A stretch of DNA of 64,000 nucleotides from contig OZ004594.1 of NCBI GenBank assembly GCA_963924555.1, positions 1,302,001 to 1,366,000 on the forward strand, given 5' to 3'. Of the stretch, positions 3 to 31,658 are shown one piece after another (the stretch's first letter is position 1; every line of letters starts with the position of its first letter). This DNA comes from Crambe crambe (lineage: Eukaryota > Porifera > Demospongiae > Poecilosclerida > Crambeidae). The notes beneath the pieces were generated by a model. That model was not told where the DNA came from. It ran no database searches and was given only the letters and a program-made list of their open reading frames with translations. Position numbers and translations under genes: made by a program.

Positions 3-1382
3 CAAGTTCTCTTCAATAAAGTTACCAATCTCATCATCAAAACCTTCTCTTCTGCATCCCTCAGAGATACAGAAAGAAATGATTTCAAGAAGAGGGGCAT
101 TTTTTCAGCATCTTCCTTCAAAAGCATTGTTGAAACTGACGACAAGATTACCTCAAGTGAGTTTCTACAGCTTTTGGTTCACCTCCGCATTATTGCTCCA
201 TTCCCCACACCAGAAGGTCAGGAAAAGAAATACTTCATGCCGTGCGTTCTTAATCACGTTCCAGAATCCAATTTAATTCTTCACACAGATATCTTACCTC
301 TGGCTATCACATTTGAACGTAGACATTGTCCTAAAGGTGTGTTTGGCGTCCTGGTTACTCACATCATGACCCCGGAATCAGATCTCAAAACCTATTATCA
401 AGCTGAATTTCAACTTATGGAAGAGAGGATATTCAAAGATCAAGTGTCTTTTAATGTCATATCCCGTGAAATTGAAGAAGATGAAATATCTATTAAAGTC
501 AATCCTTCACATCTTGAGATCAATTTCTTTCCTTACTCACAAGGTGAAGATCGTGAAGTATCAATTGAAGAAGTTTGTAGCACCATTCGTGAGATTGTGG
601 AGAAGTCAATTGTTAAGTCTTTCAGGGATCTACACTATAATGAAGAGAGAGTCAAACCAATAATGTGCCTCAGATGTGAATTCTGCAATGAACTCCATCA
701 AGTGAAAAAAGCAAAAAGAATTACTTGCAAAAAAACACGTAAAACTAGTCGTATTCCACCACGAGGAAGATATTGGTATGACAAAGGTCGGTCAATAATA
801 ATGATCATGGTAGCTAGCTAATATGGCTACTGGAGCCCTAGCCTCATACCCAGGCCCTCTTTTTGCAGAGTCAAAAAAAAGAAGAAGCGGGCCTTGCCAC
901 CTGGGTACAAAGCTACTTAGCTACCATTTCATGTTCATGCTGTCATGTGTATTTTCTGTCCCTTCAGGTTCAGCTGATAGTCTCCATGAAGGAAGTGCTA
1001 GAGTTGCCAGTATAGATGAAGAAAGGACAGAACTAGGTAATGATTTACATGATTGTGGTATGATAATCTTTCATTTGAGTTTGGTCTATTTTCAGTCAAA
1101 GATGATCATCAAGAAGTTTTCCATGAAGTGAAGTCACTGGCTGTCAAGTGGGAAAGGCTTGCTGGCAGACTGCATCTTAGTACTGACTGCATTGCAATCA
1201 TCAGAGAAAATAATTGTGGAAATGTGGTGAAGTGTCTCTCTTTGGCATTGGAAGAATGGCTGGACTTGAATTACAACTATGTGCGATATGGGAAGCCAAG
1301 TTGGAAGATGCTTGCTGAATCAGTGCGAGGTCTTAACAATAGCCTCTATGAAAAAATTGTCGAGAAGTTTAACATTCACTAG
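3..1382 (+). CDS. Roc-like GTPase/COR/death-domain protein, copy 1 (3' end only)
   Basis: The last three exons of the gene seen whole further along: 3-786, 968-1036 and 1096-1382, in frame from the window edge to a TAG stop (379 residues). The first exon holds the end of the COR-like winged-helix region and a Cys-rich tail (CLRCEFCNE followed by C and basic residues, then GRYWYDKG). The second encodes a short polar linker. The third is a death domain ending KIVEKFNIH, with the typical W-ERLAGRL start and SWKMLAESV helix. Splice sites match those of copies 2 and 3 at the same phases. The first intron carries a MITE-like fragment (831-915). The N-terminal ubiquitin array and G-domain lie outside the window. 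Function by analogy: switchable scaffold in death-domain signalling; this is inference. Confidence 0.85.
831..915. repeat. MITE fragment (AGCCT...CCCAGGC family) in an intron
   Basis: An inverted pair, CATACCCAGGCCCTC and GGGCCTTGCCACCTGGGTAC, lies in the intron between the COR-like exon and the linker exon of copy 1. It is absent from the same intron in copies 2 and 3. It resembles the termini of the longer elements at 6692-7348 and 21408-22077. Confidence 0.5.
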
Positions 1383-2960: not shown

Positions 2961-5275
<2,315 letters not shown>

Positions 5276-6691: not shown

Positions 6692-7348
6692 AGCCTTGTA
6701 CCCAGGCCCCGTTTTTTTTTTTGTGGGGCAGTGGAAAAGTGAGAGGGCCTGGTATCAATTATTGTACCTAGGTTCTAAAATTATGCAGAGGCGGGAAATA
6801 GAGCACTGTTTGTGCATGCGCCAAAAATTTCAAAAAAAATTCCTGCCATTACACTTTATGATGGTGTGTGATGTCACAGCATGTAACTACGTGTATGAGC
6901 ATGCGCTATAAGATACCAAGAAAGCCATTGCAATGAAATTCTCTGGAGAAGAGAAGACAAGACTGGCACTTTAAAAACTATTCATAGTGGCAAGAATTTC
7001 TTTATCCATAAGCTGCTCTCCCTTAAATCCAGAGGAGATGATCACAGCCTTAACTCTCCACTATTCCCCAATGAACAAACGAATGGAGAGAATTACTTGC
7101 TGCTGCTCCTTGTTCAGTACTAGGCTGAAATAGGGCGTAAAACAAACACACCATCCGCAATGAAGAACGAAGTGAACTAGAGCCGGTCTGTTGCAGTGCT
7201 GATTCAGCAGTATTGCATCATGCGTCACGGAAGATTACTGAGAGATTACAATTTCCCCCAATCAGGAGGAAAAATTGGCGCATGCGCAAACAGTGGGTAC
7301 CAGGCTCTTGTCTGCCTCCACAAAATTTTAGAGCCTGGGGACGAGGCT
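6692..7348. mobile_element. MITE with imperfect inverted termini, copy 1
   Basis: The left end, AGCCTTGTACCCAGGCCCC, is mirrored by GCCTGGGGACGAGGCT at the right end. The match continues inward with gaps to GGGCCTGGTATC on the left and GGTACCAGGCTC on the right. No transposase frame. The interior has an NRF-1-like word (GTGCATGCGCCA). The same element is at 21408-22077. Confidence 0.65.
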
Positions 7349-8152
7349 ATTATTGCAAATAAACTGAGACAGTACTATTCCTCTCAAGTCAAGCTTATGG
7401 TTGAAAACAAGTAGCAATGACTCTTCTCATCTAACCAGTTGGTAGCAGCACTTTTTTCATTAACAGCTTGCAAAGAACGCTTCTCAGAGTGAGGTGAGTT
7501 GAATCTAGCGCAGAAAGAGCAAAAGCGACAGAACAGTCTCTATCTAGAGCTGCTGACTCAGATCTCAAGATGTAATGTTTATTACGATATGTGTAAGGGA
7601 CGTGCACGTGGGAGCATGTGTATTCAATCAATGCAGGCCCTCTCATTTCTCCACCACCCTGTGAAAAAAGCAGGGCCTGGTATGAAACTAGTTGCAGTAT
7701 TGCATTCTTTGCACAGTAAAGAGTGTTTCAGCAAGAATTTTCTAGAATGGCTGAGTGTGAGATAAGCATTCAGGGAGCTTGATTTGCCACAAGTCAGACA
7801 CAAGTCACCATCTTAACTACAATACGCTAAGGAGCACAAGTTCATAAAATTACTTTATACACTGTAATTCATCACCTGCCTTAAGTGCACCATGCACATT
7901 TTTGTGATGTTTAATGGCAGTATACTTTTGCACGAGTCAGTGATGCTAACGACACCAATACTTGTTCACCTGAGGACGAGGGGGCACTGTTTGGCAACAT
8001 GAATGGTCCCATGGCCTCCAAGTCCTATTTACGTACGTACATATGGACTGTGTGACCCTGGGGTTAAATAGTCTGGTGTAGTCTACCCTTATTGGTAGGC
8101 AAGGGAAGGGAAAAGGTCTGAGTTTAACTATTGCTGTCTATAATAATTACAG
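7349..8152 (+). other. Upstream region of the copy-2 ubiquitin-array gene
   Basis: Shared with 22078-23049. It holds an inverted CAGGCCCTCTC / GCAGGGCCTGGTA pair near 7634-7682 and ends in a splice acceptor, AATTACAG, at 8145-8152. The frame of the array is open back to a TAG at 8079 but has no ATG, so a short upstream first exon must exist. I could not identify one that has the right phase in both copies. Confidence 0.6.
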
Positions 8153-11100
8153 TTATAATATCTTTGTGGAAACCCCTACACATCCGACCACCATCACTCT
8201 TGAGGTTAAGGCTTCTGATACAATTAAGACCATCAAGTCTAAGCTTCAAGATGAAGAAGGTATTCCTTCTAATAAACAGAGACTCTTCTTTAATAGGAAG
8301 CAACTTGAAGATGGTCGTACATTATCAGAATATAGCATTCAGAAGGAATCCACACTTTATTTGTTGACTAGCTTGATAATTTTTGTGAAGACACTTACTG
8401 GCAAAACCATCACCCTTAAGTTTAAAGTTTCTGATACAATTGAGGTTGTTAAATCAAAGATCCAGGACAAGGAAGGTATTCCTCCTGACCAACAAATGCT
8501 CATCTTTAATGGGAAGCCACTTAAAGATGGCCATATATTATCAGACTATAACATTCAGAAGGAGTCCACCCTTCATCTTGTATTGCGTCCAGTAATATTT
8601 GTGAAGACGCTTAGTGGCAAAACCATCACCCTTAAGTTTAAAGTTTCTGATACAATTGAGGTTGTTAAATCAAAGATCCAGGACAAGGAAGGTATTCCTC
8701 CTGACCAACAAATACTCATCTTTGCTGGGAAGCAACTTAAAGATGACCTTACATTATCAGACTATAACATTCAGAAGGAGTCCACCCTTTATCTATTGCG
8801 TCTGCAAAATGTAATATTTGTGAAGACACTTACTGGCAAAACCATCACCCTTGAGTTTGAAGCTTCTGATACAATTGAGAGTGTTAAGTCAAAGATCCAG
8901 GATAAGGAAGGTATTCCTCCTGACCAACAGAGACTCATCTTTGCTGGAAAGCAACTTAAAGATGACCTTACATTATCAGACTATAACATTCAGCAGGAGT
9001 CCACCCTTCGTCTTGTGCGAAATGTAATATTTGTGAAGACGCTTACTGGCAAAACCATCACCCTTGAGTTTGAAGTTTCTGATACAATTGAGGTTGTTAA
9101 ATCAAAGATCCAGGACAAGGAAGGTATTCCTCCTGACCAACAGAGACTCTTCTTTGGTGAGAGGCAACTTGAAGATGGCCGTAGATTATTTGACTATTAC
9201 ATTCAGAAGGAGTCCACCCTTCATCTTGTATTGCGTCTGCAAAATGTAATATTTGTGAAGACACTTACTGACAAAACCATCACCCTTGAGTTTGAAGCTT
9301 CTGATACAATTGAGAGTGTTAAGTCAAAGATCCAGGATAAGGAAGGTATTCCTCCTGACCAACAGAGACTCATCTTTGCTGGAAAGCAACTTAAAGATGA
9401 CCTTACATTATCAGACTATAACATTCAGCAGGAGTCCACCCTTCGTCTTGTGCGAAATGTAATATTTGTGAAGACGCTTACTGGCAAAACCATCACCCTT
9501 GAGTTTGAAGTTTCTGATACAATTGAGGTTGTTAAATCAAAGATCCAGGACAAGGAAGGTATTCCTCCTGACCAACAGAGACTCTTCTTTGGTGAGAGGC
9601 AACTTGAAGATGGCCGTAGATTATTTGACTATTACATTCAGAAGGAGTCCACCCTTCATCTTGTATTGCGTCTGCAAAATGTAATATTTGTGAAGACACT
9701 TCCTGACAAAACCATCACCCTTGTTGAGTTTGAAGCTTCTGATACAATTGAGAGTGTTAAGTCAAAGATCCAGGATAAGGAAGGTATTCCTCCTGACCAA
9801 CAGAGACTCATCTTTGCTGGAAAGCAACTTAAAGATGACCTTACATTATCAGACTATAACATTCAGAAGGAGTCCATCCTTTATCTATTACGTCTGCAAA
9901 ATGTAATATTTGTGAAGATGCTTACTGGCAAAACCATCACCCTTGAGTTTGAAGCTTTTGGTACAGTTGAGAGAGTTAAGTCAAAGATCCAGGATAAGGA
10001 AGGTATTCCTCCTGACCAACAGAGACTCTTCTTTGCTGAAAAGCAACTTGAAGATGGCTGTACATTATCAGACTATGACATTCAGAAGGAGTCCACCCTT
10101 CATCTTGTATTGCGTCTGCAAAATGTAATATTTGTGAAGACGCTTACTGACAAAACCATCACCCTTGAGTTTAAAGCTTTTGATACAATTGAGAGTGTTA
10201 AGTCAAAGATCCAGGACAAGGAAGGTATCCCTCCTTACCAACAAATACTCATCTTTGATGGGAAGCAACTTGAAGATGGCCATAAATTATCAGACTATAA
10301 CATTCAGATGGAGTCCACCTTTCATCTTGTGCAAAATGTAATATTTGTGAAGACGCTTACTGGCAAAATCATCACCCTTGAGTTTGAAGCTTCTGATACA
10401 ATTGAGAGTGTTAAGTCAAAGATCCAGGACAAGGAAGGTATCCCTCCTTACCAACAAATACTCATCTTTGATGGGAAGCAACTTGAAGATGGCCATAAAT
10501 TATCAGACTATAACATTCAGATGGAGTCCACCTTTCATCTTGTGCAAAATGTAATATTTGTGAAGACGCTTACTGGCAAAACCATCACCCTTGAGTTTGA
10601 AGCTTCTGGTACAATTGAGAGTGTTAAGTCAAAGATCCAGGACAAGGAAGGTATTCCTCCTGACCAACAGAGACTCTTCTTTGGTGGAAGGCAACTTGAA
10701 GATGGCCATACATTATCAGACTATAACATTCAGATGGAGTCCACCCTTCATCTTGTATTGCGTCTGCAAAATGTAATATTTGTGAAGACGCTTACTGGCA
10801 AAATCATCACCCTTGAGTTTGAAGCTTCTGATACAATTGAGAGTGTTAAGTCAAAGATCCAGGATAAGGAAGGTATTCCTCCTGACCAACAGAGACTCAT
10901 CTTTGCTGGAAAGCAACTTAAAGATGACCTTACATTATCAGACTATAACATTCGGAAGGAGTCCATCCTTCATATTGTATTACGTCTGCTAAATTCAAGT
11001 GTAAAAATATTTGTGGAGATGCTCACTGGCAAAACCATCACCCTTGAGTTTGAAGCTTCTGATACAATTGAGAGTGTTAAGTCAAAGATCCAGGATAAGG

Positions 11101-14100
11101 AAGATATTCCTCCTGACCAACAGAGACTCATCTTTGCTGGAAAGCAACTTAAAGATGACCTTACATTATCAGACTATAACATTCAGAAGGAGTCCACCCT
11201 TCATCTTATATTGCGCCTGCAAAATGTAATATTTGTGAAGATGCTTACTGGCAAAACCATCACCCTTGTTGAGTTTGAAGCTTCTGATACAATTGAGAGT
11301 GTTAAGTCAAAGATCCAGTATAAGAAAGGTATTCCTCCTGACCAACAGAGACTCATCTTTGCTGGAAAGCAACTTGAAGATGGCCGTACATTATCAGACT
11401 ATAACATTCAGATGGAGTCCACCCTTCATCTTGTGCAAAATGTAATATTTGTGAAGATGCTTACTGGCAAAACCATCACCCTTGTTGAGTTTGAAGCTTC
11501 TGATACAATTGAGAGTGTTAAGTCAAAGATCCAGGATAAGAAAGGTATTCCTCCTGACCAACAGAGACTCATCTTTGCTGGAAAGCAACTTGAAGATGGC
11601 CGTACATTATCAGACTATAACATTCAGATGGAGTCCACCCTTCATCTTGTGCAAAATGTAATATTTGTGAAGATGCTTACTGGCAAAACCATCACCCTTG
11701 AGTTTGAAGCTTCTGATACAATTGAGAGTGTTAAGTCAAAGATCCAGGATAAGAAAGGTATTCCTCCTGACCAACAGAGACTCATCTTTGCTGGAAAGCA
11801 ACTTGAAGATGGCCGTACATTATCAGACTATAACATTCAGATGGAGTCCACCCTTCATCTTGTGCAAAATGTAATATTTGTGAAGATGCTTACTGGCAAA
11901 ATCATCACCCTTGAGTTTGAAGCTTCTGATACAATTGAGAGTGTTAAGTCAAAGATCCAGGATAAGAAAGGTATTCCTCCTGACCAACAGATATTCTTCT
12001 TTGCTGGAAAGCAACTTGAAGATCGTCGTACATTATCAGACTATAACATTCGGAAGGAGTCCACCCTTCATCTTGTATTACGTCTGCTAAATTCGGAGGA
12101 AGAAACAGCAAATCCTGATGACATGGAAAATGCTGATGAAGAAGCAACAGATGCAGATAAAGAAACAGATGCTAATGAACAAACAGATGCTGATGAAGAA
12201 ACTGATGCTGATGAAGAAACAAAAGAAGCAGTCGCAGACGACTTCATCAAGGTTATTGAGGAAGCTGCTGCTAATGACAAAGAGATTGAACGGAAAATGG
12301 CTCACTCCACCTTTGTTGGTCCTCCAGGCTCTGGCAAGAGTTCATTCATGGATCGTCTGCTAGGTAGGCAGAGGAAGCAATTCTCCCCTTCCACCGGAGT
12401 GTGTGGTACCATCATCATGGTCGACATTGACGTAACTAAATCGTGCCCTCTCCAGGCAGTTAACATACTAGAGTCTGATGTTTGGGAAGAGGTCGAATGT
12501 AATGAATCATTTGTGGGGCAAATGGATGTTAGAAATGAACCAGTATATAACGAACAAGAAACACACCCGGAGTATGCTGAAGAATTCAAGGAAGTTATAC
12601 CAAATCTCAAAGAAAGTGTTACACCCGACATGCCAGCCCAGTCAGCAGAAGCTGCCAGTCTAACTGCAGCAACAACCACTCCCCCCATTGAAGAGACGAC
12701 TACCAGTCTCCCAATCAAATCGAAAATTATCACATTGAAGTTCGATGTTAACACCTGTTCAGTAATTAAGAAGTATGGGTTCAAAAAATTCAAGAAATAT
12801 CTCAAGAAAACCTTTTCCCTGTACCTCAGAGACACCGGAGGCCAGGTGGAGTTCCAAGAAATTATAGGTCTTCTCGTATTTGGCCCATCTATCATCTTTT
12901 TTCTTTTTAATATCAATCTTGGATTTCAGGAAAAGTTCAGCATCGAATACAGGCTTAGTGCTAGTGAGTCTACTAACCGCTACACCTCTTCTATCACTAC
13001 AGAAGAAGCCCTTCTCCAGTGCTTGTCTACTGTGTATGCTATGGACACATCAAGTGAAAGCCGTGTCAAGACACACAAGCCTCTTGTATTCATCGTTGGC
13101 ACACACATCGATGAGCTTCAAGCCAGCATTAAAGATAAGGATCTGGTTGATGCCAAAATAGCTGAGTTGAATCGACACTTGGATTCATTACTTATTGATA
13201 ATGGTTTTCGTGATCTTGTTGAGTATTGTGATACAGATGAAGGTAAGGTCATGTTTACTATCAATAACAAGTCTGACAGTGACAACGATTTCAAGTTCAT
13301 TCGAAGACGAGTTGAAAATTTGATCAAAGGTCGTGACGAGTTCACCATCCGATACCCACTCAAGTACCTGTTATTCTGCCTCGACTTACAATTCAGAAAA
13401 GAATGCATATTGACTCTCAAAGAATGCAAGGCCATGGCAGCAGTGTATGGTATCACAGGAGACCAAGTAATTGACCTCCTACACTTCCTTCACTTCAGAA
13501 TCGGTGTTATTCGATACTTTGATGTTGAAGGTTTGAGACACATTATCGTTAAAGAGCCTCAAGTTCTCTTCAATAAAGTGACTGATCTCATCATCAAAAC
13601 CTTCTCTTCGACATTCCTCAGGGACGGAGAAAGAAGTGATTTCAAGAAAAGAGGCATTTTTTCAGCATCTTCCTTCGAAAGCATTATCGAAACTGATGAC
13701 AAGATTACCTCAAGCGAGTTTCTACAGCTTTTGGTTCACCTCCGTATTATTGCTCCATTCCCCACACCAGAAGGTCAGGAAAAGAAATACTTCATGCCAT
13801 GCGTTCTTAATCACGTTCCAGAATCCAACTCAACTCTTCACATAAATATTTTACCTCTGGCTATCACATTCAAACATCGACATTGTCCTAAAGGTGTGTT
13901 TGGTGTCCTGGTTACCCACATCATGACCCCAGAATCAGATCTCAAAGCAGAGTATCAAACCGAATTCCAACTTATGGAAGAAAGGATTTTCAGAGATGAA
14001 GTATCTTTTAATGTATTCCATGAAGAAGAAGTAGATGAAATGTCTGTTAAAATCAACCCTTCACATCTCGAGATCAGTTTCTTTCCTTACTCACCAGCTG

Positions 14101-14868
14101 AAGACCGTGAAGTATCAATTGAAGAAGTTTGTAGCACCATTCGTGAGATTCTGGAGAAGTTGATCGTCAAATCTCTCAGGGATCTACACTATAATGAAGA
14201 GAGAGTCAAACCAATAATGTGCCTCAGATGTGAAGAGTGCAATGAATTCCATCACGTTAGAAGAACAAAAAAAATGACGTGCAAGAAAATGCGTAAAAAT
14301 ATTCATATTCCACCACAAGGAAGATATTGGTATGGAAAAGGTCAGTTGATACATTTTGATTAACACTTATTTTTCTACTATTATGTGATTGTATTTTTCG
14401 TCCATGCAGGTTCATCTGATGCTGATGGTGTCTGTAAAAGAAGTGTTAAAGTTGCCAAAGATGACAAAGAAAGAGCAGAACTAGGTAATGATTATATCAT
14501 GCTATAGATTGTGGCATGATATGCTCGCATTTGTATTTATGATCAGGTATCACTAGCTATGTATTTGTATACTATTTTCAGGCAAAGATGATCATCAAGA
14601 AGTATTCCATGAAGTGAAGTCACTGGCTGCCAAGTGGGAAAGGCTTGCTGGTAGACTGCATCTCAGTACTGACTGCATTGCAATCATTGGAGAAAATAAT
14701 CGTGGAAATGTGGTGAAATGTCTCTCTTTGGCATTGGAAGAATGGCTGGACTTGAATTACAACTATGTGCGATATGGGAAGCCAAGTTGGAAGATGCTTG
14801 CTGAATCAGTGCGAGGTCTTAATAATAGCCTCTATGAAAAAATTGTCGAGAAGTTTAACATTCACTAG
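8153..14868 (+). CDS. Ubiquitin-like array + Roc-like GTPase + COR + death domain protein, copy 2
   Basis: Three exons seen: 8153-14340, 14410-14484 and 14582-14868, giving about 2,182 residues; the start exon is unresolved. In order: 18 tandem ubiquitin-like domains; an Asp/Glu-rich linker (repeated DADEET words); a P-loop G-domain with GPPGSGKSS (Walker A), [10 protein letters not shown] (switch II with the Gln typical of Ras/G-alpha) and IVGTHIDEL in place of NKxD; a COR-like winged-helix region ([18 protein letters not shown], then [16 protein letters not shown]); a Cys-rich patch (CLRCEECNE); and a death domain. Roc-COR proteins are GTP switches, and death domains recruit partners by homotypic contact. 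Unlike copy 3, the array runs straight into the linker in one exon without an internal death domain. Lack of LRGG in every repeat predicts that the chain stays intact. Function not established. Confidence 0.85.
8160..12092 (+). repeat. 18-unit ubiquitin-like coding repeat array
   Basis: Units are about 213-234 bp, each encoding one ubiquitin fold. Consensus pieces: [66 protein letters not shown]. Units end in LRLQN, LVQN, LVRN or LRLLN and join directly to the next VIFVKT. No unit ends in Gly-Gly. The first unit is the most diverged ([14 protein letters not shown], ending YLLTSL). Units 4-5 and 6-7 form a near-identical 435-bp higher-order repeat. Confidence 0.95.
8816..9685 (+). repeat. 435-bp higher-order duplication inside the array
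   Basis: Two consecutive two-unit blocks (about 8816-9250 and 9251-9685) are almost identical. The second member of each pair has the same distinctive residues ([20 protein letters not shown]). This points to recent unequal crossing-over or conversion within the array. Confidence 0.8.
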
Positions 14869-14979
14869 AAAAACCACAATGCTTTGTCAGTTTCTATAAT
14901 TTTTTGTGGTAAAATTAACGGAGGGCGTGGTGATAAAAATTCGCGGGGAAAAAAAGAGCGCGCCGGGAAGTAGCTAGCC
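14869..14979 (+). promoter_or_regulatory. Short spacer, likely NSE2 promoter
   Basis: Between the death-domain stop and the NSE2 ATG there are about 100-115 bp in all three copies (1383-1479, 14869-14979, 31659-31772). All contain AACGGAGGGCGTGGTGATAA and GAGCGCGCCGGGAAGTAGCT, a GC-rich block in AT-rich surroundings. Strict conservation suggests a core promoter and 5' leader. No TATA box. Confidence 0.45.
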
Positions 14980-23049: not shown

Positions 23050-26000
23050 TTATAATATCTTTGTGGAAACTCCTACAAATCCAACCTCCATCACCCTTGA
23101 GGTTGAGGCTTCTGATACAATCAAGACCATCAAGTCTAAGCTTCAAGATGAAGAAGGTATTCCTTCTAATGAACAAAGACTCTTCTTTAATGGGAAGCAA
23201 CTTGAAGATGGTCGTACATTACCAGAATATAGCATTCAGAAGGAGTCCACACTTTATTTGCAGACTAGTTTGATAATAGTGAAGACGCTTACTGGTAAAA
23301 CCATCATCCTTAAGGTTGAGACTTCTGATACTATTGAGAGTGTTAAGTCAAAGATCCAGGACAAGGAAGGTATTCCTCCTGACCAACAGAGACTCATCTT
23401 TGATGGGAGGCAACTTAAAGATGACCTTACATTATCAGACTATAACATTCAGGTGGAGTCCACCATTCATCTTGTATTGCGTCTGCAAAATATAATATTT
23501 ATGAAGACGCTTACTGGCAAAACCATCACCCTTGAATTTGAAGCTTCTGATACAATTGAGAGTGTTAAGTCAAAGACCCAGGATAAGGAAGGTATTCCTC
23601 TTAACCAACAGAGACTCATCTTTGCTGGGAAGCAACTTGAAAATAGCCGTACATTATCAGACTATAACATTCAGCAGGAGTCCACCCTTCTTCTTGTGCA
23701 AAATGTAATATTTGTGAAGACGCTTACTGGCAAAATCATCACCCTTGAGTTTGAAGCTTCTGATACAACAATTGAGAGTGTTAAATCAAAGATCCAGGAC
23801 ACGGAAGGTATTCCTCCTGACCAACAGAGACTCATCTTTGCTGGGAAGCAACTTAAAGATGGCCATACATTATCAGACTATAACATTCAGCAGGAGTCCA
23901 CCCTTCATCTTGTATTGCGTCTGCGAAATCGAAATAATGTAATATTTGTGAAGGCGCTTACTGGCAAAACCATCACCCTTGAGTTTGAAGCTTCTGGTAC
24001 AATTGAGAGTGTTAAGTCAAAGATCCAGGACAAGGAAGGTATTCCTCCTGACCAACAGAGACTCTTCTTTGGTGGAAGGCAACTTGAAGATGGCCATACA
24101 TTATTAGACTATAACATTCAGAAGGAGTCCACCATTCATCTTGTATTGCGTGTGCAAAATGTAATATTTGTGAAGACGCTTACTGGCAAAACCATCACCC
24201 TTGAGTTTAAAGCTTCTGATACAATTGAGAGTATTAAGTCAAAGATCCAGGACAAGGAAAGTATTCCTCTTAACCAACAGAGACTCATCTTTGCTGGGAA
24301 GCAACTTGAAGAAGGCCATACATTATTAGACTATAACATTCAGAAGGAGTCCACCCTTCATCTTGCATTGTGTCTGCAAATATTTGTGACGATGCTTACT
24401 GCCAAAACCATCACCCTTGAGGTTGAAGCTTCTGATACAATTGAGAGGATTAAGTCAAAGATTCAGGACAAGGAAGGTATTCCTCCCGACCAACAGAGAC
24501 TCTTCTTTGGTGGGAGGCAACTTGAAGATGGCCATACATTATCAGACTATAACATTCAGCACGAGTTCACCCTTCATCTTGTATTGGGTCTGCGAAATCG
24601 AAATGTAATATTTGTGAAGGCACTTACTGGCAAAATCATCATTGAGTTTGAAGCTTCTGGTACTATTGAGAGTGTTAAGTCAAAGATCCAGGACAAGGAA
24701 GGTATTCCTCCTAACAAACAAATACTCATCTTTGATGGGAAGCAACTTGAAGATGGTCATACATTATCAGATTATGACATTCAGAAGGAGTCCACCCTTC
24801 ATCTTGTGCAAAATGTAATATTTGTGAAGGCGCTTACTGGCAAAATCATCACCCTTGAGTTTGAAGCTTCTGATACAATTGAGAGAATTAAGTCAAAGAT
24901 TCAGGATAAGGAAGGAATTCCTCCTGACCCACAGAGACTCATCTTTGCTGGGAAGCAACTTGAAGATGGCCGTATATTATCGGACTATAACATTCAGGGG
25001 GGGTCCACCCTTTATCTTGTATTGGGTCTGCAAAATGTAATATTTGTGAAGATGCTTACTGGCAAAATCATCACCCTTGAGTTTGAAGCTTCTGATACAA
25101 CAATTGGGAGTGTTAAGTCAAAGATCCAGGACACGGAAGGTATTCCTCCTGACCAACAGAGACTCATCTTTGCTGGGAAGCAACTTAAAGATGGCCATAC
25201 ATTATCAGACTATAACATTCAGCAGGAGTCCACCCTTCATCTTGTATTGCGTCTGCGAAATCGAAATGTAATATTTGTGAAGGCGCTTACTGGCAAAATC
25301 ATCACCCTTGAGTTTGAAGCTTTTGATACAATTGAGAGGATTAAGTCAAAGATTCAGGATAAGGAAGGAATTCCTCCTGACCTACAGAGACTCATCTTTG
25401 CTGGGAAGCAACTTGAAGATGGCCGTATATTATCGGACTATAACATTCAGAAGGAGTCCACCCTTCATCTTGTATTGCATCTGCAAAATGTAATATTTGT
25501 GAAGGCGCTTACTGGCAAAATCATTACGCTTGAGTTTGAAGCTTTTGATACAATTGAGAGTGTTAAGTCAAAGATCCAGGATAAGGAAGGTATTCCTCCT
25601 GACCAACAGAGACTCTTCTTTGCTGGAAAGCAACTTGAAGATGGCTGTACATTATCAGACTATGACATTCAGAAGGAGTCCACCCTTCATCTTGTATTGC
25701 ATCTGCAAAATGTAATATTTGTGAAGACGCTTACTGACAAAACCATCACCCTTGAGTTTGAAGCTTTTGATACAATTGAGAGTGTTAAGTCAAAGATCCA
25801 GGATAAGGAAGGTATTCCTCCTGACCAACAGAGACTCTTCTTTGCTGGAAAGCAACTTGAAGATGGCTGTACATTATCAGACTATGACATTCAGAAAGAG
25901 TCCACCCTTCATCTTGTGCAAAATGTAATATTTGTGAAGGCGCTTACTGGCAAAATCATTACCCTTGAGTTTGAAGCTTTTGATACAATTGAGAGTGTTA

Positions 26001-29000
26001 AGTCAAAGATCCAGGATAAGGAAGGTATTCCTCCTGACCAACAGAGACTCTTCTTTGCTGGAAAGCAACTTGAAGATGGCTGTACATTATCAGACTATGA
26101 CATTCAGAAGGAGTCCACCCTTCATCTTGTATTGCGTCTGCAAAATGTAATATTTGTGAAGACGCTTACTGACAAAACCATCACCCTTGAGTTTGAAGCT
26201 TTTGATACAATTGAGAGTGTTAAGTCAAAGATCCAGGACAAGGAAGGTATTCCTCCTAACCAACAAATACTCATCTTTGATGGGAAGCAACTTGAAGATG
26301 GTCATACATTATCAGATTATGACATTCAGAAGGAGTCCGCCCTTCATCTTGTGCAAAATGTAATATTTGTGAAGGCGCTTACTGGCAAAATCATCACCCT
26401 TGAGTTTGAAGCTTTTGATACAATTGAGAGTGTTAAGTCAAAGATCCAGGACAAGGAAGGTGTTCCTCCTAGCCAACAAATACTCATCTTTGATGGGAAG
26501 CAACTTGAAGATGGTCATACATTATCAGATTATGACATTCAGAAGGAGTCCGCCCTTCATCTTGTGCAAAATGTAATATTTGTGAAGGCGCTTACTGGCA
26601 AAATCATCACCCTTGAGTTTGAAGCTTCTGGTACTATTAAGAGTGTTAAGTCAAAGATCCAGGACAAGGAAGGTGTTCCTCCTAGCCAACAAATACTCAT
26701 CTTTGATGGGAAGCAACTTGAAGATGGTCATACATTATCAGATTATGACATTCAGAAGGAGTCCACCCTTCATCTTGTGCAAAATGTAATATTTGTGAAG
26801 GCGCTTCTTACTGGCAAAATCATCACCCTTGAGTTTGAAGCTTCTGATACAATTGAGAGGATTAAGTCAAAGATTCAGGATAAGGAAGGAATTCCTCCTG
26901 ACCAACAGAGACTCATCCTTGCTGGGAAGCAACTTGAAGATGGCCGTATATCATCGGACTATAACATTCAGGGGGGGTCCACCCTTTATCTTTTATTGTG
27001 TCTGCAAAATTTAATATTTGTGAAGACGCTTACTGACAAAACTATCACCCTTGAGTTTGAAGCTTTTGGTACAATTGAGAGAGTTAAGTCAAAGATCCAG
27101 GATAAGGAAGGTATTCCTCCTGACCAACAGAGACTCTTCTTTGCTGGAAAGCAACTTGAAGATGGCTGTACATTATCAGACTATGACATTCAGAAGGAGT
27201 CCACCCTTCATCTTGTATTGCGTCTGCAAAATGTAATATTTGTGAAGACGCTTACTGACAAAACCATCACCCTTGAGTTTGAAGCTTCTGGTACAATTGA
27301 GAGTGTTAAGTCAAAGATCCAGGACAAGCAAGGTATTCCTCCTAATCAGCAAGTACTCGTCTTCGATGGGAAGCAACTTATGGATGGATGTGCATTGTCA
27401 GATTACAATATTCATGACAATGATCTGCTTCATCTTATGATGCAGATATTTGTGAAGACTGAAGATGAAAAAATCATAACCCTCTTTATAAAACCAACTC
27501 ACACCATTGAAAGTATCAAATTCAGTATTAAAGATAAATGTATGATCTTACCACATCTACAGCAACTTTTGTTTGCTACTAAGGAACTTTCTGAAAATGA
27601 CCTCACTGTTTCTTACTATATGATCAAGAACAACTCAACTCTTCATTTATACAAGTGTGAGTATTATAAATAACAAAGTGGCTATTCATCCGGCAGCCGG
27701 ACGCTATTAGCACAGGGCTATATGTCCAGCAGTCTAATATTAATACATAAGCCAGTGAACCTATGTATTTAGAAAAAAAGTAGTGGCTAGGGCTAGGCTT
27801 GGGCTATAGGGCTAGGGCTAGAGCTAGAGGCTAGGAGGCTAGGGCTCTTGCAAGGGAGGAAGTGCAGCGAGCGTTAGGTGTATGGGATGTACTATTCACG
27901 CACTGTTGTGACTCTAAGGCTAGGCAACACTCGCTCAGCTTGCAGTGCGGGCCCAAAGGGCTGCCTAAGGCAACCAAAGAGAGGTTAGAAGTATAAATAT
28001 CACTTTCAAAGTTACTTTTGCAGCATTGCCACTGTAGTGCATCGGTTAGTTCTGTGTGGTTTGGAATGCCTGGTCATGGGTTCGAGTCCTGCAATTGCTC
28101 TTCTCGATCTTTGAAAATTTTCTAAAGTGCCAGCACTGCCAGACATAATTATAGCTCTGTGAAAATAGTATTCGGCTGCCGGACGAATAGCCACAGCATA
28201 TAAATTATATGCTTGCACACCCAAAACATTGTATTTATTCTTTAGCTGGTGATAGGCTATCCTATTTATTATCGCTCCCTGCTCCTGTCCGCCCCCTCCT
28301 AAAGAAGCAGTTGGACTGGGACAATGAAGTGGACAGGGACCTGCATTTCATAGCAGATGATTATATGTTGGACTGGGAGAAGAAACTCGCAAATCAATTG
28401 GGAATAACCCTTAGTGATATATACAATATCAAAGCAGAACATTATAAGCCTGCTCTCATAAGGTAAGTAAGATTCAATTGCAAGTAGTTCATTATAGCTA
28501 TCAAGGTATGATTATTTATCTCTTCAGGAGAGCAATCTTGAGGAAGTGGAAGGAAAAGCAAGGTGTCCATGCCACCTATCGTCACTTGCTGGACCTATGC
28601 TGTCAGGGAAGGGCTGCACATACTGCTGCAGCCATTTGTGAAGTCCTGAGGAAAGAGAGAGGTACTACTACATGTGGTCACTATTGATTTCCATGACAAC
28701 TTAAGCTAATAATTTTATGGACGGGTGGGTGGGTAATTTAATTAGCCAGAGGTGACCAGACCAGTTCAGATGCATCAAAATTGATACTACCCTGTAATAA
28801 GATCATCTGAAGTCATTGTATAATGTGAGCCTTTCTACTCTTGAGATTAGCTAACAACCATGGATGTTTATCCTTTAGGTAAAAAAACAGAAAAGACAGA
28901 TGTTGATGAAGAAGTAGAAGATGCTGAGGAAGAAACAGCAGATCCTGATGACAATGATGATGAATTAGCAAATGCTAAAGATGCTGATGAAGAAACAGAT

Positions 29001-31658
29001 GCTAACGATGAAGAAGCAGTTGCAGATGACTTCATCAAGGTTATTGAGGAAGCTGCTGCTAATGATAAGGAGATTGAAAGGAAGATGGCTCACTCCACCT
29101 TTGTTGGTCCTCCAGGCTCTGGCAAGAGTTCATTCATGGATCGTCTACTAGGTAGGCAGAGGAAGCAATTCTCCCCTTCCACCGGAGTGTGTGGTACCAT
29201 CATCATGGTCGACATTGACGTAACTAAATCGTGCCCTCTCCAGGCGGTTAACATACTAGAGTCTGATGTTTGGGAAGAAGTCGAATGTAACGAATCATTT
29301 GTGGGGCAAATGGATGTTAGAAATGAACCAGAAGGTACCGAATCATTTATTGAACAAGAAACACACCTTGAGGACACTGAAGAATTCAAGGAAGTTATAC
29401 CAAATTTCAAAGAAAGTGTTAAACCTGACATGCCAGCCCAGTCAGCTGCCAGTCTAACTGCAGCAACAACCACTCCCCCCATTGAAGAGATGACTACCAG
29501 TCTCCCAATCAAATCAAAAATTATCACATTGAAGTTTGATGATAACACCCGTTCAGTGATTAAGAAGTATGGGTTCAAGAAATTCAAGAAATATCTCAAG
29601 AAAACCTTTTCCCTGTACCTCAGAGACACCGGAGGCCAGGTGGAGTTCCAAGAAATTATAGGTCTTCTCATTTTTGGCCCATCTATCATCTTCTTTCTTT
29701 TTAACATCAATCTTGGATTTCAGGAAAACTTCAGCATTGAATACAGGGTTACTGCTAGCAAGTCTACCAACCAGTACACCTCTTCTATCACTACAGAAGA
29801 AGCCCTTCTCCAGTGCTTGTCCACTGTGTATGCTATGGACACATCAACTGAAAGCCGTGTCAAGACACACAAGCCTCTTGTATTTATTGTTGGCACTCAC
29901 ATCGATGAGCTTCAAGCCAGAATCAAAGATAAGGATCTGGTTGATGCCAAAATTGCCGAGATGAATCAACACTTGCATTCATTGCTTACTGATAATGGTT
30001 TTCGTGATCTTGTTGAGTATTATGATGCAGATGAAGGTAAGGTCATGTTTACTATCAATAACATGTCTGACATCGATGACGATTTCATGTTTGTTCGAAG
30101 ACGAGTTGAAAATTTAATCAAAGGTCGTGATGAGTTCACCATCAGATACCCACTCAAGTACCTGTTATTCTGCCTCGACTTACAATTCAGAAAAGAATGC
30201 ATATTGACTCTCAAGGAATGCAAGGCCATGGCAGCAGTATATGGTATCATAGGAGACCAAGTAATTGACCTCCTACATTTCCTTCACTTCAGAATTGGTG
30301 TCATCCGATACTTCGATGTCAAAGGTTTGAGACACATTATCGTTAAAGAGCCTCAAGTTCTCTTCAATAAAGTGACCGATCTCATCATCAAAACCTTCTC
30401 TTCTACATTCCTCAGGGACAGAGAGAGAAGTGATTTCAAGAAGAGGGGCATTTTTTCAGCATCTTCCTTCAAAAGCGTTATTGAAACTGATGACAAGATT
30501 ACCTCAAGCGAGTTTCTACAACTTTTGGTTCACCTCCGCATTATTGCTCCATTCCCCACACCAGAAGGTCAGGAAAAGAAATACTTCATGCCGTGTGTTC
30601 TTAATCATGTTCCAGAATCCAAATCAACTCTTCACACAGATATCTTATCTCTGGCTATCACATTCGAACGTAGACATTGTCCTAAAGGTGTGTTTGGCGT
30701 CCTGGTTACCCACATCATGACCCCAGAATCAGATCTAAAAGCCGAGTATCGAACCGAATTCCAACTCATGGAAGAAAGGATATTCAAAGATCAAGTGTCT
30801 TTTAATGTCATATCATACGAAGAAGAAGTAGATGAAATGTCTATTAAAGTTAATCGTTCTCATCTCGAGATCAGTTTCTTTCCTTATTCACCAGCTGAAG
30901 ACCGTGAAGTATCAATTGAAGAAGTTTGTAGCACCATTCGTGAGATTCTGGAGAAATTGATCATTAAATCTTTCAGAGATCTGCACTATAATGAAGAGAG
31001 AGTCAAACCAATAATGTGTCTCAGGTGTGAAGAGTGCAATGAACTCCATCAAGTTAGAAGAGCAAAAAAAATGACATGCAAGAAAATGCGTAAAAATATT
31101 CATATTCCACCTCAAGGAAGATATTGGTATGGAAAAGGTCAGTCGATACATTTTAATTGATGCTTATTTTATATTATTATGTGATCGTATTTTTCATCCA
31201 TGCAGGTTCATCTGATAGTGTCTGTAAAAGAAGTGCTAAAGTTGCTAAAAATGACGAAGAAAGAGCAGAACTAGGTAATGATTATATCATGCTATAGATT
31301 GTGGCATGATATGCTTGCATTTGTATTTATGATCAGGTATCACTAGCTATGTATTTGTATACTATTTTCAGGCAAAGATGATCATCAAGAAGTATTCCAT
31401 GAAGTGAAGTCACTGGCTGCCAAGTGGGAAAGGCTTGCTGGCAGACTGCATCTCAGTACTGACTGCATTGCAATCATTGGAGAAAATAATCGTGGAAATG
31501 TGGTGAAATGTCTCTCTTTGGCATTGGAAGAATGGCTGGACTTGAATTACAACTATGTGCGATATGGGAAGCCAAGTTGGAAGATGCTTGCTGAATCAGT
31601 GCGAGGTCTTGACAATAGCCTCTATGAAAAAATTGTTGAGAAGTTTAACATTCACTAG
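23050..31658 (+). CDS. Ubiquitin-like array + death domain + Roc-like GTPase + COR + death domain protein, copy 3
   Basis: Six exons: 23050-27656, 28246-28462, 28528-28661, 28879-31137, 31206-31274 and 31372-31658. All phases agree and give about 2,523 residues; the first exon is not identified. In order: 21 ubiquitin-like domains without Gly-Gly ends; a first death domain split over two exons ([20 protein letters not shown], then [40 protein letters not shown]); an acidic linker; a G-domain ([28 protein letters not shown]); a COR-like region; a Cys-rich patch; and a C-terminal death domain ([18 protein letters not shown]). The exon after the array ends in AAGT before GTGAGT, and the next starts CTGGTGATAGG, so the join is in frame. 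Likely a signalling scaffold. Partners unknown. Confidence 0.85.
23057..27655 (+). repeat. 21-unit ubiquitin-like coding repeat array
   Basis: Same kind of array as in copy 2, with its own variants: [22 protein letters not shown] and LVLGLQN unit ends, [10 protein letters not shown] insertions, and [12 protein letters not shown] (Lys63-Glu64 equivalents replaced by Gly-Gly) in units 9 and 18. Units 8-18 are highly similar to each other. The last unit is strongly diverged ([19 protein letters not shown], ending STLHLYK). No unit carries the C-terminal LRGG. Confidence 0.95.
27678..28194. mobile_element. MITE in the intron after the array (copy 3)
   Basis: The left end GTGGCTATTCATCCGGCAGC is mirrored at the right end by CGGCTGCCGGACGAATAGCCAC in the intron between the array exon and the first death-domain exon. 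The interior has degenerate GGGCTA/GGCTAG repeats (27787-27845) and a tRNA-like stretch. No open frame of note. Confidence 0.75.
28023..28098 (+). repeat. tRNA-derived (SINE-like) stretch inside the MITE
   Basis: A 76-base stretch has an A-box-like GTAGTGCATCGGTTAG and a good B box, GGTTCGAGTCC, at tRNA spacing. The ends GCATTGC and GCAATTGC could form an imperfect acceptor stem. The anticodon arm does not fold well, so this is more likely a tRNA relic or SINE head than a working tRNA gene. Confidence 0.4.

Follow-up and report, generated by a model that had tools for sequence, protein, structure and literature searches.

Ubiquitin-like arrays lacking Gly-Gly ends in a candidate ROCO-like, death-domain gene family of the sponge Crambe crambe

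We analysed a 64-kb window on contig C17 (OZ004594.1, positions 1,302,001 to 1,366,000) of the sponge Crambe crambe. Within it and just upstream, three tandem genes, here called A, B and C, carry arrays of 15, 18 and 21 ubiquitin-like units. We favour, at a probability of roughly one in two, the explanation that a non-conjugatable, polyubiquitin-derived array has been swapped onto a ROCO-like, death-domain-bearing switch and serves there as an N-terminal platform for recognition or bait, with gene B being a deletion copy. Gene B is a real, unusual fusion that is not unique and is probably not ancestral in form. What is new here is the polyubiquitin-derived array in the role of the repeat, while proteins that combine repeats, a GTPase and death domains are of a known kind.

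The main reading frame of gene B (8082-14363) runs for 2093 codons without a stop and encodes, in order, 18 ubiquitin-like units, an acidic linker, a P-loop GTPase and a COR-A-like region. The Pfam profile PF00240 matched 18 stretches of this protein (whole-protein E=0), placing the units in the ubiquitin family, and a tandem repeat was detected across 8190-12092; an array of this kind is well outside what chance would produce. The units are 71-77 residues long, and none of them ends in Gly-Gly (0/18 in B and 0/54 over the three genes), whereas all six units of L038, a canonical polyubiquitin gene also found in this genome, do. Only two Gly-Gly pairs occur in the whole B frame, one within unit 12 and the other in the DTGGQ motif of the GTPase. 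The first-pass annotation of this DNA had reported 18 head-to-tail units in one open exon, each missing the tail required for cleavage and conjugation, and both statements held up. B resembles polyubiquitin genes in its head-to-tail units but differs from them in lacking Gly-Gly and in being joined to a signalling protein; without Gly-Gly, the units would not be expected to be processed to monomers by the usual route.

The array units have mean identities to ubiquitin of 76-85% over residues 2-70. Since some joints in paralogue A still look like decayed polyubiquitin joints (RSDM, RSSI and PGM), descent of the units from polyubiquitin is supported, and a gene of the L038 type is the likely source. 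Every B unit has another residue in place of Gln2, and 7 to 9 of the 18 show gaps at residues 71-73. The B array also contains two-unit block duplications of 435 bp, with unit 5 identical to unit 7 and unit 4 differing from unit 6 by one residue. Single-sequence structure prediction for a three-unit piece (10335-10976) gave a mean pLDDT of 86.4 and a pTM of 0.47. Ubiquitin folds form in this model, in which the strands of neighbouring units lie one residue apart at a short QN joint, although the relative placement of units is not reliable.

The death domain of B lies outside the main exon, from which it is separated by two short introns. The last exon matched the Death profile PF00531 at 16.1 bits (E=0.012; cut-off 22.6), so that it appears death-domain-like through kinship of position rather than by score. 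The same profile scored the last exons of L022 (31.9 bits) and L021 (28.1 bits) above the cut-off and those of L020 (20.3 bits), A (16.3 bits) and C (16.0 bits) below it. Accordingly, the proposed fusion of the array to a GTPase and death-domain protein stands for the GTPase and COR part, which shares the array exon, but has to be qualified for the death domain, which is a weak match in a later exon. At the other end of the gene, no in-frame ATG is present between the stop preceding 8082 and the array, and the start codon must sit in an exon further upstream. Short start-exon candidates shared among the genes, for example one of 11 codons at 6858-6892 of the window, had no other support and were set aside.

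Comparison with A and C indicated how the layout of B arose. In both paralogues a GTGAGT donor is reached within the last unit of the array. When the exons of A were joined at GT/AG sites, the frame led from the array through a well-defined death domain and the acidic linker into the GTPase, up to the end of the upstream stretch L019. C joined in the same way has the same order and remains open through its last exon, for a protein of about 2520 residues; of the five acceptors tried for its GTPase exon, 28879, 28891, 28900 and 28912 kept the frame and 28896 did not. The middle death domain of C is well above the PF00531 cut-off (36.3 bits, E=6.4e-9), and its homologue in A is 64% identical over 137 aligned positions, intron included. 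B has neither this middle death domain nor the introns, it is missing the distinctive terminal unit, and its array passes without a break from the last unit to the acidic linker. Because a middle death domain comes next downstream of seven arrays (A, C, L030, L031, L032, L033 and L034), the best reading is that B is a derived deletion, which most likely fused the array and GTPase exons. Therefore, the one-exon layout put forward in the first-pass annotation does not describe the plan of the gene; its relatives indicate that B is a derived copy minus a death domain. The array-GTPase frame of A is also kept when both of its death-domain exons are left out, so a splice form of A with the domain order of B is possible.

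Alignment of 10 GTPase paralogues showed little or no variation in the P-loop, DTGGQ and TH.D motifs. The Roc profile PF08477 remained below its cut-off of 27 bits in the three members scanned (17.1 bits in B, 23.6 in L023 and 19.9 in L028). COR-A (PF16095) matched B with E=5.2e-8 at 33.3 bits, slightly under the cut-off of 35.3, and exceeded it in the paralogues L023 (37.8 bits) and L028 (40.9 bits). A search of PDB sequences with a single GTPase returned no match up to E=10, while a profile of the 10 paralogues returned 13 weak matches, the best being the Roc domain of LRRK2 at E=0.11. The GTPases of A, B and C are under purifying selection, with dN/dS values of 0.17 for B and C, 0.15 for A and B, and 0.22 for A and C (comparisons involving A covered 423-425 codons).

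The B GTPase, used as query against the genome (143 Mb, 119 contigs), matched at 66 places. Two of these were second pieces of split genes, which leaves at least 64 loci including B; this count is a lower bound, as 64 of 454 candidates were scored. We sampled the upstream modules at nine of these loci (L020-L028). A long ankyrin array lay upstream on the same strand in five of them (L020, L021, L023, L024 and L025), and no ubiquitin units were found in any of the nine. It appears from these positions that the ubiquitin array occupies the place where sister genes carry other repeats, namely ankyrin. ZU5 scored above the cut-off in L023 and L025, both with ankyrin arrays, and L022 had an upstream Macro domain that perhaps belongs to another gene. 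No profile reached its cut-off in the upstream frames scanned, of which two were from L026, one from L027 and three from L028; one of the L028 frames carried a Death match of 20.0 bits. L026 has a 297-residue open frame upstream of its GTPase paralogue (4153-5043 of that stretch) that looks caspase-like by eye and has no Pfam match. ZU5 is a feature of PIDD and ankyrin-type ZU5-death proteins; L023 and L025 share it and the stretch of A, B and C does not, as tblastn (E 1e-4) found no ZU5-like match across the window and L019, where these genes lie.

Other ubiquitin arrays of the genome place those of the window in a series. In the fetched loci, 13 open frames had three or more complete units, and three of these contain Gly-Gly units: L038 (6/6), an array at 2.4 Mb of contig C16 (6/14) and one at 2.52 Mb of C17 (2/7). 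The idea that Gly-Gly is absent from all arrays except canonical polyubiquitin was rejected on account of the latter two. The C16 array (L029, 6218-9439), which combines units that have Gly-Gly with units that do not, is possibly an intermediate toward arrays lacking it. Three further arrays (L031, L032 and L033, C17:1.80-1.83 Mb) have no Gly-Gly in the counted frames. They are followed by the middle death domain and then not by a GTPase but by a segment that shares 45-48% identity with the ZU5 segments of L023-L025 and has no Pfam match of its own. Two divergent arrays of nine ubiquitin-like units each (L035, 681-2810, and L036, 6108-9053) lack Gly-Gly in all complete units, and the fetched stretches around them (C15:7.145 Mb and C20:2.09 Mb, respectively) gave no match to the middle death domain. 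Across the whole genome, the Death model produced at least 150 scored matches of 965 candidates, a very large death-domain repertoire.

The first-pass annotation had considered the Leu8/Ile44/His68/Val70 surface of the units mostly kept. Site by site this is the case in B (17, 12, 13 and 14 of 18 units, respectively), but all four residues are retained together in only 7/18 units of B, 8/21 of C and 1/15 of A, and no better than other exposed sites. To compare classes of sites, we measured identity to ubiquitin over sites 2-70 at buried sites, in an extended Ile44 patch and at other exposed sites, using random exposed sets as reference; buried sites were taken as generally described for the ubiquitin fold. 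In B, identity was 0.93 at buried sites, 0.817 in the patch and 0.813 at other exposed sites, with random exposed sets equalling the patch in 52% of draws (P=0.52). The corresponding values were 0.90, 0.829 and 0.767 in C (P=0.25) and 0.87, 0.667 and 0.721 in A (P=0.81), and the four central patch residues alone gave P=0.73, 0.63 and 0.98 for B, C and A. The idea that selection holds the Ile44 patch found no support, the patch being no better kept than other exposed sites. These comparisons suggest that only the fold, through its buried core, has been retained and that no reader-binding surface is singled out; some units may still bind.

We also compared substitution rates among the units; each dN/dS value is a mean taken over every pair, and as the units are related the pairs are not independent. 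For A, B and C taken singly the values came to 0.37, 0.71 and 0.58, respectively, and for units of B against units of C to 0.64, compared with 0.03 in the canonical gene. When array units were set against canonical ubiquitin units, dN/dS was 0.11-0.14 at a dS of 1.0-1.3, near saturation. Long-run constraint thus appears strong and is weaker among the amplified units.

In the explanation we favour, the gene plan would be a ubiquitin-like array, a death domain, a Roc-like GTPase with COR, and a divergent death domain. The many folded units, having no tail for conjugation or cleavage, would provide avidity for a partner, the GTPase and COR part would act as a GTP-dependent switch, and the clustered death domains would pass the signal on. 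Array and GTPase would be transcribed as one mRNA, and a ligand, GTP switching and a death-domain output are presumed likewise. Several points weigh against this explanation. A, B and C are known here from DNA sequence alone; a start exon was searched for in all three genes and no convincing one was found, leaving them with no start codon. Among the three, array and GTPase share one exon in B only, where the Roc (17.1 of 27 bits), COR-A (33.3 of 35.3) and Death (16.1 of 22.6) matches all fall under the Pfam cut-offs, and a structure model of the GTPase from the three window copies gave no usable fold (mean pLDDT 28.5). The link between ankyrin arrays and GTPases is one of position and strand only, with four of the nine sampled loci showing no ankyrin array, and no ligand surface appears to stand out on the array units.

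Known systems offer partial parallels. Brown-algal LRR-ROC-COR proteins, which are candidate immune receptors (PMC11378527), are similar ROCO proteins in having repeats followed by a Roc-like GTPase and COR, in a large family with variable repeats. They differ in that the repeats here are polyubiquitin-derived, death domains are present, and B scores under the cut-offs for Roc and COR-A. PMC8195603 reports 357 TRADD-N proteins in Amphimedon, with partners that vary, and names ubiquitin-system domains among the domains associated with TRADD-N. Such lineage-specific expansions of TRADD-N and death domains, in Amphimedon and other marine animals, resemble the present family in their large death-domain families with variable attached domains. 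In contrast with them, no TRADD-N was present among Pfam matches with E<=0.1 in the B main exon and the C array and GTPase exons (the start exon lying outside the scan), and ubiquitin arrays without Gly-Gly on Roc-COR are not described in the available part of PMC8195603. The proposed scheme of array, GTPase and death domain fits the general one of repeat, NTPase and adaptor immune proteins set out there. OASL (PMC6019448) likewise carries tandem ubiquitin-like domains on an immune protein, where they mimic polyubiquitin, but it has two C-terminal units and no GTPase or death domain, whereas here 15-21 units lie on the N-terminal side. None of the literature matches listed (open-licence titles and abstract beginnings) describes the present layout. 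If the favoured explanation is true, these genes would hold a natural, genetically encoded analogue of a ubiquitin chain, devoid of cut sites, on a death-domain switch. With sister genes that have ankyrin in the same place, one could test directly if copies of ubiquitin can serve an immune-type switch as recognition repeats, and the arrays of this one genome show stepwise loss of polyubiquitin processing sites.

The alternatives differ mainly in what the array does. It could be a passive, expanding spacer or oligomerisation stalk in which the fold alone is retained, without ubiquitin-type binding; this is unlikely, although we rank it ahead of the other alternatives. Such a stalk would agree with the preference for buried over exposed sites in B (0.93 against about 0.81) with no patch favoured, with the 435-bp block duplications and near-identical units, and with a dN/dS of 0.37-0.71 among units against 0.03 in real polyubiquitin. 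It is harder to reconcile with identities to ubiquitin that still average 76-85% and with the 0.11-0.14 relative to canonical ubiquitin, which implies strong constraint over much of the history of one or both lineages. A more specific version of the favoured explanation, in which polyubiquitin was made into an uncuttable, non-conjugatable bait array replacing ankyrin repeats and the receptor senses proteins that bind or cut ubiquitin chains, is doubtful and ranks below the spacer.

Next in order, and improbable, is the proposal that the array is a permanent M1-like chain that recruits UBAN-type readers of linear chains and keeps the death-domain platform active. The head-to-tail units, the absence of a Gly-Gly cut site and the death domains within the same gene agree with it, as does the analogy with the two tandem domains of OASL that mimic polyubiquitin for RIG-I (PMC6019448). 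However, the Ile44 patch of B is no better kept than random exposed sets, all four patch residues occur in only 16/54 units, Gln2 is retained in 0/18 B units, and residues 71-73 are frequently gapped; in addition, the model places the strands one residue apart at the short tail joint, albeit with no confidence in the placement. A dedicated mimic of M1 chains, as the first-pass annotation had suggested, is therefore unsupported beyond the missing tail. Less probable again is an integrated decoy, that is, a bait for ubiquitin-directed enzymes or binders of invaders, over which the death-domain switch would stand guard. N-terminal modules do differ within an expanded family, units diverge fast (0.64 between B and C), and plant NLRs provide known cases of integrated decoys (PMC4759852), but direct evidence for an invader target is lacking and the raised dN/dS equally fits relaxed constraint. 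That B is merely a non-functional or misassembled fusion copy is very hard to credit: it is the sole one of the three genes without a middle death domain and terminal unit, yet its 2093 codons are open, its GTPase is constrained relative to that of C (0.17), and the array and GTPase exons of A are also in frame once the death-domain exons are removed.

Table 1. Positions of features of genes A, B and C (window coordinates unless L019 is named)
Feature	Position	Strand	Basis
A, 15-unit array and death domain, upstream of window	L019 4373-7686 and 7751-8179		sequence match
A, end of GTPase/COR exon	3-818	+	sequence match
A, C-terminal divergent death domain	1098-1379	+	sequence match, PF00531 scored
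B, probable splice acceptor AG (8151-8152) and first bases of array exon	8151-8156	+	ACAG before TTATAATATC common to A and C
B, 18 tandem ubiquitin-like units, all without Gly-Gly tail	8157-12092	+	PF00240 profile, repeat detection
B, acidic linker, joined straight onto last unit	12093-12257	+	18-bp tandem repeat 12130-12221
B, Roc-like P-loop GTPase and COR-A-like region	12258-14340	+	motifs, weak profile matches
B, small exon between GTPase exon and last exon	14410-14484	+	GT/AG borders
B, last exon, divergent death domain	14582-14869	+	GT/AG borders, weak PF00531 match
C, exon of 21 units without Gly-Gly, ending at GTGAGT donor in last unit	23050-27656	+	PF00240, splice joining
C, middle death domain in two exons (28246-28462, 28528-28661)	28246-28661	+	PF00531 E=6.4e-9
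C, acidic linker, GTPase and COR-A-like exon	28879-31137	+	Pfam, splice joining
C, small exon	31206-31274	+	splice joining
C, last exon, divergent death domain	31372-31655	+	sequence match, splice joining

Upstream of B, the window also contains SH3-like, SH2 and SH3 exons (3790-5272), which resemble GRB2. Pfam identified SH2 at 4291-4467 and SH3 at 5084-5272 in this gene, where the exon at 3790-3945 is the SH3-like one. Since these exons recur upstream of A (in L019) and of C, the tandem duplication seems to have included the SH3/SH2 gene.

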